A stretch of 64,000 bases of DNA. It comes from Haloferax larsenii JCM 13917. GTDB taxonomy: Archaea; Halobacteriota; Halobacteria; Halobacteriales; Haloferacaceae. The DNA lies in NCBI RefSeq assembly GCF_000336955.1, contig NZ_AOLI01000009.1, positions 165,171 through 229,170 on the forward strand. Direction: 5' to 3'. The notes beneath the pieces were generated by a model, which was given only the letters and a program-made list of their open reading frames with translations, did not search any database and was not told the origin of the DNA. Position numbers and translations under genes: made by a program. Every line of letters begins with the position of its first letter. Positions within the stretch are counted from its first letter, which is position 1. Positions 36,531 through 41,059 of this stretch are shown piece by piece.

Positions 36531-37223
36531 TTAGACGGTGAACGTCGTTTCAGTAGCGCTCGTGTTGCCGTGTGAGTCGGTCACGACGAGTTTCAGCGAG
36601 AACGTGTTGTCGTCGGCGAACTGCTCGACGAGCGTCGGGCCGGTCTTCCACGGCGAAGACAGGTAGTCGTCTTGGTGCTCGTGGTTTCGGACGTACCACT
36701 CGTAGGACTCGATAGTGCCACGCGGCGCTGCCGAGAGTCGGCCACTGAAGGTAATCGGCCCGCTGTTGTCCGGTGCTTCAGGAAGTCGGGTGATGCGTGC
36801 GGTCGGTGTGACCGTTTGGTGTGCGATGAAATCCAGTCGCGTGCTGTCCGTGTTCCCGTCGTTGTCAGTGACGACGAGTTTCAGCGAAAACGGACTGTCC
36901 GCGAACGATTCGGTGAACGTCTCGCTGGTTTTCCACGGCGAGGAGGGAAAGTCGTCCTGCGCCTCGTTGTTACGAACGTACCATTCGTAGGACTGGATTC
37001 CGGCGGGTGCGCTCGATTCGCTCGCATCGAACGTAATATCGTCACCCTGTTCGGCCGGAATCGAGTCGGCGTTGATGACGGCTGTTGGACCGCTCGATGC
37101 GGCGGCGCTGCCGGTACTCGCGCCTACGCTAAGCATTCCAATCCCCGCTGCTGCGCCAGTCTTGAGGACCGTTCGTCGCGTCGAGTCGTCGACCAATCCA
37201 GAGTCGTCGTTGTCGTCTTTCAT
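36531..37223 (-). CDS. Tat-exported protein with two PKD-like repeats
   Basis: Secreted protein, 230 aa. A Tat signal (DSTRRTVLKTGAAAG) ends in an Ala/Ser-rich cleavage region with no lipobox Cys. Two homologous PKD/Ig-like repeats of about 85 residues follow, each with SYEWYVRN near the start, DD[FY]xSSPWKT in the middle and FSLKLVVTD near the end. No catalytic residues are visible; a binding or surface role is likely. It is convergent with the molybdopterin enzyme. Confidence 0.75.
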   Translation of the reverse strand: MKDDNDDSGLVDDSTRRTVLKTGAAAGIGMLSVGASTGSAAASSGPTAVINADSIPAEQGDDITFDASESSAPAGIQSYEWYVRNNEAQDDFPSSPWKTSETFTESFADSPFSLKLVVTDNDGNTDSTRLDFIAHQTVTPTARITRLPEAPDNSGPITFSGRLSAAPRGTIESYEWYVRNHEHQDDYLSSPWKTGPTLVEQFADDNTFSLKLVVTDSHGNTSATETTFTV

Positions 37224-37771: not shown

Positions 37772-37984
37772 ATGAGCCTCGATTCGAGCGACGACCCGAC
37801 TGTTCCGATTGTCTGCGACGACTGTGGCACGCGAACCCGCGTCCCGCTTTCCGACCTCGCAGACCTCCTCGAACGACACAACGAGACCCGCCACGACGGC
37901 GAGTCGGTCGCCACGGTCGAACCCAAACTCGCAGAGCAAATCGCGGACCTCGTCACGGAAGATATGGGACTGCTCGAAGAGTAG
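37772..37984 (+). CDS. Small zinc-finger-like protein
   Basis: 70-residue acidic protein with CDDC (Cys15, Cys18) and HNETRH (His36, His41), a C2H2-like set of ligands. The rest is helical (EPKLAEQIADLVTEDMGLL). A GTTTACAC box lies about 30 nt before the ATG, so it is probably leaderless. No family is recognised. Confidence 0.7.
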   Translation: MSLDSSDDPTVPIVCDDCGTRTRVPLSDLADLLERHNETRHDGESVATVEPKLAEQIADLVTEDMGLLEE

Positions 37985-38121
37985 CCCGGTGGCGTGGTGT
38001 CGAGTTGGCTGTTGGTCACTCTCGCGGGTTTTCCGGGCGGAACTACGTTGCGAACCCTGTCGGTTCTGTTTCGTGTTCGGCGTGAGTGCTCGATTACACT
38101 GGAAACTGGGTTTCCAGACGA

Positions 38122-38247
38122 ATGAGTAAACTCAGCAAAGTGGGGTTACTCGAAGAGGTCGAGCGCAGGTACTCCCGGATTTCTACGGAGGGGTGTGTCT
38201 ATCTCTCCGGGGAGATCGACGCCTCGACGTTGGAACAAAGCGAGTGA
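38122..38247 (+). CDS. 41-residue small protein
   Basis: Encodes a charged peptide with LLEEVERRYSRISTEGCVYL. ATTACAC lies about 30 nt before the ATG. It is on the same strand as, and 137 bp after, the zinc-finger-like protein. Composition and promoter make it a plausible gene, but no family is recognised. Confidence 0.42.
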   Translation: MSKLSKVGLLEEVERRYSRISTEGCVYLSGEIDASTLEQSE

Positions 38248-38308
38248 GGAAGCACCCACCAGCCTTACCCGTAAAGGGGGCGGGTGGATGGGTTGTAGAG
38301 TGGTTTTC

Positions 38309-38587
38309 CTAACAACTCGGTTGTTTTAGAAGGTTGTCGTCTGGTGTGTCGTTGGGTTCCGTTCGGACATATTTCGTGGAGCCACGCTTTGCCGCGATTA
38401 GGTCTGTTCGAGACCCATTATGTTTCACGTAGAACTCATCTCCATTGTTAATTCGACCATGTATCTGTTCAGGAGTGTATCTGTTTGTTCCGCCACCTTT
38501 GACTGGTATACCTATAGTCGTAATACTACGACAGTCGTCATGTGGTGACGAATTATCCGTGCTAACACACTTCACTTGATATGCCAT
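38309..38587 (-). CDS. DUF3892-like small protein
   Basis: 92 aa, starting MAYQVKCVSTDNSS. The pattern (ITTIGIPVKGGGTNRYTPEQ, then GDEFYV, KYVRTEPN and the final DDNLLKQPSC) matches the DUF3892 type, found on mobile elements and in many bacteria, with unknown role. The ATG at 38587 is preferred to one 15 codons upstream because the family starts there. It is the first gene of the accessory block that ends at tRNA-Arg. Confidence 0.68.
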   Translation of the reverse strand: MAYQVKCVSTDNSSPHDDCRSITTIGIPVKGGGTNRYTPEQIHGRINNGDEFYVKHNGSRTDLIAAKRGSTKYVRTEPNDTPDDNLLKQPSC

Positions 38588-38674
38588 CACAATACACAAC
38601 ATTGTCCTTTGTAATAGTTTTTTGTCCGACACTATTGGTATCGCTCTGGTATAGAATACAGAATCGAACTAGTC

Positions 38675-39469
38675 TTATTCCTCTGCAAACTCCAAATTCG
38701 AGTGCTTGTACGTGTAGAGCTTGATTTTCTGGTCGTAGCAGTACGACGCATACAGCGCCGGGTGAATCGTTTCCCAGTCGCCCGGACCCTCGTCAAGACT
38801 GGACGGGAACGCCACACTAACCGCTTCGCCTTCCATCTCCTGCCCATACGCACCGGTGTTCTGCTCCGGCGGTAGTACCTCCACGACGACCGCGACTGAC
38901 GCGTCATCGTCGCCTTTCTTCTTCACGCGGTCGCCGGGCGAGAACGGATTCTCCGGCTTCTGGTTCATGTACGCCGTGTTCGGACCGAGGTCGATGAGTT
39001 CGTTCATCGGCCGCGCTGCGAGGTGGTCGAGCTTTTCGGGTTCCTCGCCGGAATACTTCTCCTGCGACGCCGCTTTCGACTTCAACGTCTCGACGCGCTC
39101 CCAGCCGAGCATGATGAGACTGTCTTCCTTGTCTCGGTGCCAGACCATCACGATGATGTCGTCATCGGGGTCGTTGTCGAGGAGGGTTTCGGGGAGGAAC
39201 GCCGACACGTCGCGCGAGGTCTTTACGTCAACCTCGTAGCCGAATACTTCGAAGTCGTACGACGAGAAACTTTCAGGATTGCAGCGCCGCATCGCTTCTT
39301 CGTTCTTCCACTCCCACAGGTCTACTGGGAGGTATTCACGGCAGAACTGCTCGAACGCGAGTTCTCCGAGGTTCCCGATTCGTTTTACGTCGAGGTTCTT
39401 TCGGTCTTGGACCTTCGCTTGGTGGTTGGCGCGTTCGTAGTCGATTTCTGAGGGAGTGTAGCGGTACAT
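38675..39469 (-). CDS. PD-(D/E)XK nuclease-like protein
   Basis: Putative endonuclease, 264 aa. The N-terminal half has the restriction-like core: GELAFEQF (Glu36), Asp72 in SYDFEVFG and the D-X-K pair Asp81-Val-Lys83 in YEVDVKTS, followed by a strand DDDIIVMVWH. The C-terminal half (about residues 175-225) looks like a small beta-barrel (PFSPGDRVKKKG, then VAVVVEVLPPE). No methyltransferase lies next to it, so a plain type II system is not supported. It sits in the island between DUF3892-like and zinc-ribbon/HTH genes, all on the minus strand. The nuclease call is from motif spacing only. Confidence 0.6.
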   Translation of the reverse strand: MYRYTPSEIDYERANHQAKVQDRKNLDVKRIGNLGELAFEQFCREYLPVDLWEWKNEEAMRRCNPESFSSYDFEVFGYEVDVKTSRDVSAFLPETLLDNDPDDDIIVMVWHRDKEDSLIMLGWERVETLKSKAASQEKYSGEEPEKLDHLAARPMNELIDLGPNTAYMNQKPENPFSPGDRVKKKGDDDASVAVVVEVLPPEQNTGAYGQEMEGEAVSVAFPSSLDEGPGDWETIHPALYASYCYDQKIKLYTYKHSNLEFAEE

Positions 39470-39571
39470 TTCTAGAATGAACTATAGTTAGATGATTGAA
39501 TCTTCCTCAGATGTTAGCACGCTATGCGTCCCCAAAGTAGTGTGTAGAAGAAACCAGAATGGGTTATTAGA

Positions 39572-40414
39572 CTAGTTGAAAACGTCACGAACATATGGGT
39601 CCTCAAGGGTGAGAGACCCAGCTTTGTACGGAGTCCGTAAGGAAGCAAATCGTGCATCAAGAGACCCTATGTCTGCTTCGACTAGGGCAACTAGTGAACC
39701 CGCTTCCTGAAACTCATCAAAGAATTCATCAATTGACATTGAATGACCGACGGGGGCTGCAATATGGTAATCATCACGGTCACATTCCTTGCAATACATC
39801 TCGTGTGTTTGCCAGTTCTGACCAACGAATTCGAGAACTGCGACTGCCTCAGAGCCGGCCTCAATTATGCTTCCACAGCCGCCACAGGGATATTCGTCAC
39901 CAATGAAGACTGGCCATCCATTAAGTTGTCCCTCCATGTGGCGGAGAGGGTGGATTTCATTACTAACTTCCTCAAGTGTACGAATCGACTCTTCGACTCT
40001 ATTTTCGACACGACGCACATATTCGCCGACGGTACTTTTGCTGATTCCAAGGGTCTCTGCCACCTCAGAGTGGCTGTTCAATTCTTCTTTTAATGCTTTG
40101 ACTTGTGCCTCGCGGCGTTTCAGTACTGTTTCATTCTCTAAAACTTGTGCTCGGTACACCCACGAGTTCGGAGACACAAGGGGGTCATCAATAAAGCCCA
40201 CATCGTCTGATTCGTAGTGTCGTTGGACAACTATGCCACAACGAGAACATTCGATTTGGGTATATTCTCCGTGCTTAGAGTCAGAGTCCGTGTAACTATA
40301 GCCCGGGCCAGTGGGCGGCGATCCAATTTTTTCTTTGAACTCATTGCTACAATTTGGACAGTTTGGTGGAATCTCAACCCAGTCTGGTCGGTGAATGTCT
40401 ATTTTGTCAACCAT
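39572..40414 (-). CDS. Zinc-ribbon / HTH / zinc-ribbon protein
   Basis: 280 aa, family not recognised. A first CxxC pair (Cys19, Cys22) and second (Cys56, Cys59) would form one zinc ribbon. A helix-turn-helix (SHSEVAETLGISKSTVGEYV) spans about 115-133, followed by a coiled helix. A second zinc ribbon uses CGGC (177-180) and CKEC (208-211). The C-terminal 60 residues are mixed. The lower GC of the gene (many ATA, TTA and AAA codons) suggests acquisition by transfer. It may be a DNA-binding regulator of the island. Confidence 0.6.
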   Translation of the reverse strand: MVDKIDIHRPDWVEIPPNCPNCSNEFKEKIGSPPTGPGYSYTDSDSKHGEYTQIECSRCGIVVQRHYESDDVGFIDDPLVSPNSWVYRAQVLENETVLKRREAQVKALKEELNSHSEVAETLGISKSTVGEYVRRVENRVEESIRTLEEVSNEIHPLRHMEGQLNGWPVFIGDEYPCGGCGSIIEAGSEAVAVLEFVGQNWQTHEMYCKECDRDDYHIAAPVGHSMSIDEFFDEFQEAGSLVALVEADIGSLDARFASLRTPYKAGSLTLEDPYVRDVFN

Positions 40415-40483
40415 AGTGTGCTACTATTTGTTCGTACCCCATACTACAGAATAGTGGTACAAAATTCTTTCTTCAAATCATGC

Positions 40484-40870
40484 TTATGTAGGCATCTCTC
40501 TCTGTAACAACTCGTGGAACTCTGTCCAATCCTGGAACTGCTCCTGAAACAGGCCCCCGGCAGATTCCACGCCCACGGCGCGGTGTCGTCGGGGTCGTAC
40601 TTCTCTAACGTAGGTTCCAAATTAACCACGAACCACCGAGCAACTTCCCTCAAGCACATCAAAATCGGCGTCCCAGTCACAGTAGACGTCACTTCGTCCT
40701 GTTTCTCTTTATAGAACGAGAGCGTCGAGAGTCGTTTCTGTTCGAGATGCACGTCTTCCCGGTGTGACTCACCACGCCGACGGATTCGACGCCGAGCTTC
40801 GAGAGTCGCTTACTCGCACGTACCCACTTCGAACCGATCCAGTATGTCGAAAAAGACTGAGTTTCGTACC
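40484..40870 (-). pseudogene. Frameshifted gene remnant next to tRNA-Arg
   Basis: Coding-like sequence continues through three frames. The upstream part reads GSKWVRASKRLSKLGVESVG. Near 40765 it moves to the frame with HLEQKRLSTLSFYKEKQDEV and CLREVARWFVVNLEPTLEKY. At a G5 run near 40557-40561 it moves again to GLFQEQFQDWTEFHELLQ, ending at the stop at 40484-40486. A single missing G would explain the last shift. The upstream end is cut at the tRNA-like repeat at 40871. It is probably a decayed mobile-element gene; its family is not recognised. Confidence 0.5.
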
Positions 40871-40890
40871 GGCGCTGCAGGATTGTGAAC
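40871..40890. repeat. Partial copy of the tRNA-Arg 3' end (att-like)
   Basis: GGCGCTGCAGGATT at 40871-40884 is identical to 40987-41000 within the tRNA gene, and the match continues to 40890 with a small difference (GTGAAC against TGAAC). This is the acceptor stem and T-arm 3' half of the tRNA, the usual attachment site of archaeal integrative elements. An inverted copy, GTTCAAATCCTGCA, lies at 40931-40944. Confidence 0.6.
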
Positions 40891-40930
40891 TACGCCCGAG
40901 AACCTGCGCTCCGCGCAGAACCTCGGTCTA

Positions 40931-40944
40931 GTTCAAATCCTGCA
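40931..40944. repeat. Inverted copy of tRNA-Arg T-arm segment
   Basis: GTTCAAATCCTGCA is the exact reverse complement of 40992-41005 within the tRNA gene. Together with the direct copy at 40871 it shows that tRNA-derived sequence has been rearranged here more than once. Confidence 0.65.
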
Positions 40945-40984
40945 TACCCAGATTTAGCTCGTCACGAAGTTCCTCGCAAAATCA

Positions 40985-41059
40985 TGGGCGCTGCAGGATT
41001 TGAACCCACGGCAACTTGGTCCGAAGCCAAGCACTCTGTCCAGACTGAGCTAAGCGCCC
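40985..41059 (-). tRNA. tRNA-Arg(TCG)
   Basis: Read on the minus strand. The acceptor stem pairs GGGCGCT with AGCGCCC, and the discriminator base is A. The D arm is GCTCAGTCTGGACAGAG. The anticodon stem CTTGG/CCAAG closes loop CTTCGGA, giving anticodon TCG (codon CGA, arginine). The T arm contains GGTTCAAATCC. 75 nt, no CCA encoded and no intron. Its 3' end is duplicated nearby, marking it as an integration target. Confidence 0.93.

Follow-up and report, generated by a model that had tools for sequence, protein, structure and literature searches.

A decayed Halfgib1-like provirus and its intact cargo genes at a tRNA-Arg gene of Haloferax larsenii

The tailed phage P2 and the satellite P4 carry defence hotspots, in which interchangeable defence genes occupy a fixed slot between core genes. 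Among the pleolipoviruses, HHPV4 encodes HHPV4I, a biochemically tested m6A-dependent endonuclease for which exclusion of other viruses has been proposed (PMC10101028). The published integration site of Haloferax virus Halfgib1 and of Halfvol3 is tRNA-Arg (PMC7911831). We analysed a stretch of 64,000 nucleotides from Haloferax larsenii JCM 13917 (hereafter the window), in which an earlier note had described an unassigned accessory island beside a tRNA-Arg gene. The island can now be assigned, as two gene remnants and a nuclease-like gene tie it to pleolipoviruses at this published site. Taken as a whole, the locus is likely to combine a decayed Halfgib1-like provirus with an exclusion nuclease and two separate passengers.

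Borders and viral remnants of the insert

The GC content at 38–41 kb was 0.465–0.53 per kb against a window mean of 0.622, in agreement with the low-GC block reported in the earlier note. A blastn comparison with the empty site of G025 (L115), the closest relative compared, delimited an insert at 37985–40870, where 2886 bp stand against 157 unrelated bases in G025. The left homology ended at 37984, and the insert begins directly after a small zinc-protein gene that ends at this position; the right homology resumed at 40871, and the insert stops where the tRNA 3' end is partially duplicated. The identity between G025 and the window was approximately 90% on the zinc-protein side and 95% on the tRNA side, extending into the UbiA gene. 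The insert thus differs from the extent of 38309–41059 given previously. ARAGORN placed tRNA-Arg(TCG) at 40985–41059 on the minus strand. The proposal of a tRNA-linked accessory element was borne out by the comparison of Haloferax genomes, some of which have the element and some not, with defined borders.

The 3' end of the tRNA-Arg gene at 40985, TGGGCGCTGCAGG, is the reverse complement of the Halfgib1 attP, CCTGCAGCGCCCA (MW344766). The partial, att-like second copy of this 3' end, GGCGCTGCAGGATT, lies at 40871–40884 (repeat pair 40871/40987). It is also present at the same position in the empty site of G025 (L115), and complete 13-nt copies occur there in G028 and G036 (L116, L117); we therefore regard the copy as part of the site, not of the insert. 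The region 40871–40950 can fold into a hairpin of very high stability (about -47 kcal/mol, z -7.1), and its arms repeat the 3' end of tRNA-Arg in the two orientations. The hairpin is kept beside tRNA-Arg in G025, G027, G028, and G036, and partial copies were found elsewhere (G000:C28:22631 and G029:C1:2118038). An Rfam match to mir-239 over 40877–40943 was rejected because it fell under the gathering score. The 12-nt inverted repeats around the nuclease-like gene (38667/39566) were judged to be due to chance, as pairs of equal length occurred elsewhere in the same search. Outside the insert, a tandem PKD-domain repeat was observed at 36561–36998 within a secreted protein gene (36531–37223).

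The minus-strand open reading frames (38309–38632, 38675–39469, 39572–40414, and 40444–40752) were found as described previously, and the frameshifted remnant was real. It is the 3' end, truncated on its 5' side, of a pleolipovirus VP8/ORF9-type ATPase gene, at 40496–40868 on the minus strand, as determined by tblastn and DNA comparison. Residues 200–322 of HfxHg1_060 were recovered by tblastn across three reading frames at 40502–40868, and the DNA was 83% identical to Halfgib1 across 40496–40817. A second remnant, which the earlier note had missed, lies on the plus strand at 38089–38297 and comprises a pleolipovirus winged-helix repressor gene of the HfxHg1_090/pHK2 ORF11 type without its 5' part, together with a conserved 3' tail. 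Residues 36–87 of HfxHg1_090 aligned by tblastn at 38089–38244, and over 38089–38293 the DNA shared 86% identity with the G023 provirus; the tail also occurs in L065 and L095. Three DNA blocks are common to the window and Haloferax proviruses (38089–38297, 38675–39511, and 40496–40817). The ATPase remnant, the nuclease-like gene, and the repressor remnant are ordered and oriented as in Halfgib1, the nuclease-like gene lying in the middle.

The same tRNA-Arg gene is occupied by pleolipovirus proviruses in G023, G026, and G031 among 15 Haloferax genomes, and G034 is a fourth Haloferax carrier, with a pleolipovirus element at tRNA-Arg on broken contigs. At the same gene, G029 contains a lone ATPase scrap and G030 contains a different integrase element. 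In another genus (G162), a UbiA-linked tRNA-Arg gene is accompanied by a broken nuclease copy with an internal stop (L128:14168–14959), from which we conclude that the site has been used repeatedly. The insert at 37985–40870 contains no integrase and no distal att, and the ATPase remnant was the only pleolipovirus core gene found in it. Owing to the absence of an integrase and a distal att, we call the insert a remnant and not a provirus; the absence of the other core genes is as expected of a deletion derivative.

These comparisons identify the insert as what remains of an integrative pleolipovirus similar to Halfgib1. The virus entered at tRNA-Arg(TCG), a known site of such viruses in Haloferax, and its provirus then decayed. 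Deletions on one side removed all genes from the replication gene through the middle of the VP8-like ATPase gene, and those on the other side removed the integrase gene and the first part of the repressor gene. The remainder is the viral cargo slot, from ATPase to repressor, in which three cargo genes are intact. To find a decayed provirus at a known site is not in itself unusual.

Cargo genes and the ATPase–repressor slot

The central gene of the insert (38675–39469, minus strand) is intact and encodes a PD-(D/E)XK-type nuclease-like protein with one C-terminal barrel-like domain. The protein was 94% identical to HfxHg1_080 of Halfgib1 and matched phrog_18072 over its full length (E 5.6e-172). 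E36, D72, and D81-V-K83 were invariant across 25 relatives, a PD-(D/E)XK-like pattern. Foldseek, which the earlier note had suggested, gave only non-significant PDB matches (Tudor/CAP-Gly-like barrels) and three low-coverage viral matches for a model of too low confidence to be conclusive. This AlphaFold model, with a pLDDT of only 58, has a helix-strand-strand-strand-strand-helix core that fits the PD-(D/E)XK topology. No domain model recognised the protein, no sequence match to solved structures was obtained with it singly or as a profile, and a pattern-seeded scan of viral contigs gave no relative. Relatives were present in 50 of 170 genomes of the family and in several megaplasmids of other families. 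A short form of approximately 264 amino acids occurs in pleolipoviruses, and a long form of approximately 340 amino acids, with a second C-terminal domain, occurs elsewhere, on chromosomes and megaplasmids with no pleolipovirus structural genes detected nearby. In the tree, the window protein grouped with three Haloferax provirus copies (support 100/99).

The intact small ORF at 38309–38632 (minus strand) encodes a DUF3892 protein (Pfam PF13031, phrog_8224), with a score of 27.8 bits against a Pfam gathering score of 22.3 bits. Relatives were found in 25 of 392 genomes of the order. Since many of these homologues align from residue 11–16, the real start is probably the ATG at codon 16 (38587). 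A published analysis describes fusions of DUF3892 with Min-Wnt domains among predicted antiviral proteins and proposes RNA or ribosome sensing (PMC12419801). At another locus (L133:465–2393), a DUF3892 gene is flanked by genes for a Pycsar-type cyclase and a probable membrane protein. The third intact ORF (39572–40414, minus strand) encodes a protein with CxxC pairs at both ends and a central HTH, and is lineage-specific cargo. The match to HTH_10 was weak (23.3 bits against a cut-off of 23.1), and resemblance to other proteins was confined to the HTH. No full-length relative was found in 392 sampled genomes of the order, and none was found in pattern-seeded scans of genomes and viral contigs or in phage and plasmid collections. 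A single-sequence structure model was unusable (pLDDT 42). No protein of the island matched PADLOC-DB better than E 0.03.

We surveyed 33 loci at which the ATPase gene is accompanied by a gene for an integrase or a repressor. Where a repressor was found, it lay 663 to 6128 bp from the ATPase gene, and the contents of the slot varied. The nuclease was present in 7 of the 33 proviruses and absent from 26, and it recurs in the same slot in proviruses of at least four genera. The slot of Halfgib1 also contains a Type II nuclease, a cytosine methylase (Dcm), and a SIR2-TPR gene. Other slots contain a Pycsar-type cyclase, PycC (L108/L196), PDC-M19A (L109/L197), GmrSD (L173), ParE-like toxins (L172, and by sequence L173), or a Schlafen AlbA_2 protein (L189). 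Some slots had no recognisable defence gene among the part of their ORFs that was scanned; the contents identified suggest that defence genes may be enriched in the ATPase–repressor slot. In a G164 provirus, the slot (L170:1933–4653) contains a TIR-effector-like gene followed by two genes without assignment. In the Halfgib1 provirus, a second copy of the ATPase gene 3' end lies directly downstream of the nuclease gene (L097:10451–10593), and this copy may mark how cargo was added. We did not find a description of the slot in the literature searched, and one could still exist elsewhere; the island is of a known kind, in a slot that has been little described.

Function of the nuclease-like gene

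Based on its residue pattern, the protein is a candidate for DNA cleavage, and the function that we infer as best is that of a virus-carried, DNA-targeting exclusion nuclease; the presumed link to defence comes from neighbouring genes. The nuclease would cut incoming foreign DNA and would formerly have excluded other viruses. The host would now profit from it, and such a benefit would explain its conservation. HHPV4I, from another pleolipovirus, is a precedent for this reading. The earlier suggestion of a role in defence or competition is plausible for the nuclease, but the pairing of nuclease and regulator in one module is not supported, as set out below. It is possible, though only tentatively proposed here, that phrog_18072 is an undescribed haloarchaeal exclusion nuclease directed at DNA, with a viral short form in a dedicated defence slot of integrative pleolipoviruses and a domesticated long form, its C-terminal domain doubled, beside restriction systems, and that provirus decay at tRNA-Arg has left the host a defence gene.

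The nuclease could also be a restriction endonuclease whose partner is a DNA methyltransferase and which survives alone in the window, and methyltransferases do occur beside the family: Dcm in Halfgib1, an N6/N4 methylase in L103, and a D12 adenine methylase with an Mrr endonuclease in nine Halorubrum loci. In these nine loci (L100, L101, L102, L144, L145, L147, L150, L153, and L155), the long-form nuclease, Mrr, and D12 genes have nearly constant spacing. However, the methylases are mutually unrelated, and at most of the 44 other nuclease loci no methylase of the three reference types was found up to a distance of approximately 4.5 kb. No cognate methyltransferase was found in the island, and no constant partner across the 44 loci. 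In Halfgib1, a Type II nuclease is already available to Dcm in the neighbouring HfxHg1_070 (PADLOC REase_II, E 2.8e-30). The idea, drawn from Halfgib1, of the nuclease as the restriction partner of Dcm was dropped, as HfxHg1_070 probably fills this role. A restriction enzyme on its own would, moreover, cut the DNA of its host, and we regard the restriction explanation as unlikely.

It is less probable still that the nuclease serves the life of the viral DNA, in replication, resolution, or breakdown of host DNA, and not exclusion. Its strong sequence conservation and its recurrence in one slot across genera would fit such a role, but the 26 surveyed proviruses that do without it and the long form that lives outside pleolipoviruses indicate that no pleolipovirus needs it. 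The idea that all three genes are dead passengers awaiting decay, to which the broken flanking virus genes lend some weight, is just as improbable. All three ORFs are open, and the changes private to the window nuclease comprise 22 silent and 4 replacement changes. The pairwise dN/dS values of the nuclease were 0.045–0.065. Both results go beyond the expectation under neutral drift. The nuclease is under purifying selection, and most of this signal may have arisen before the provirus decayed.

A single dedicated defence or maintenance module of all three genes is very improbable even though they are adjacent, intact, and on the same strand, because the trio, the co-occurrence of which the earlier note had proposed to check, recurred in none of the 44 other nuclease loci, the GC contents are sharply unequal within the GC trough (DUF3892, 0.438; nuclease, 0.575; zinc-ribbon/HTH, 0.477), and the nuclease has retained an upstream block of approximately 40 bp of its own that other proviruses share (38675–39511). 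The DUF3892 and zinc-ribbon/HTH proteins would instead be independent passengers and not partners of the putative exclusion nuclease.

Significance and comparison with known systems

An unexplained island has thus been given a specific history, in which both the virus group and the site can be named and passenger genes survive. The variable ATPase–repressor slot of integrative pleolipoviruses is indicated as a collecting place of defence genes, and one recurrent uncharacterised nuclease family is testable in the genetically tractable archaeon Haloferax volcanii. Should the nuclease prove to block other viruses, haloarchaea would, like bacteria, draw immunity genes from dead proviruses at tRNA genes. 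The novelty is modest; the defence-rich slot and the nuclease family merit follow-up.

The window shares with Halfgib1 (MW344766) the att core, the arrangement of ATPase, nuclease, and repressor, and a nuclease of 94% identity, and it shares the tRNA-Arg site with both Halfgib1 and the provirus Halfvol3 (PMC7911831). Unlike Halfgib1, the window copy lacks the replication, spike, and integrase genes and most of the ATPase gene, and its cargo contains no Dcm, Type II nuclease, or SIR2 gene. The phrog_18072 profile covers the whole length of the window nuclease but is longer, with 335 positions, and many of its chromosomal members have a second C-terminal domain. HHPV4I is likewise an accessory nuclease of an integrative pleolipovirus, encoded (ORF6) beside repressor genes; however, its architecture is SRA-wH-HNH, in contrast to the PD-(D/E)XK-like pattern in the window, and HHPV4 is a betapleolipovirus. 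The ATPase–repressor slot resembles the P2 and P4 hotspots in being fixed between core virus genes, whereas pleolipoviruses are archaeal membrane-vesicle viruses and their slot is defined here by a small survey only.
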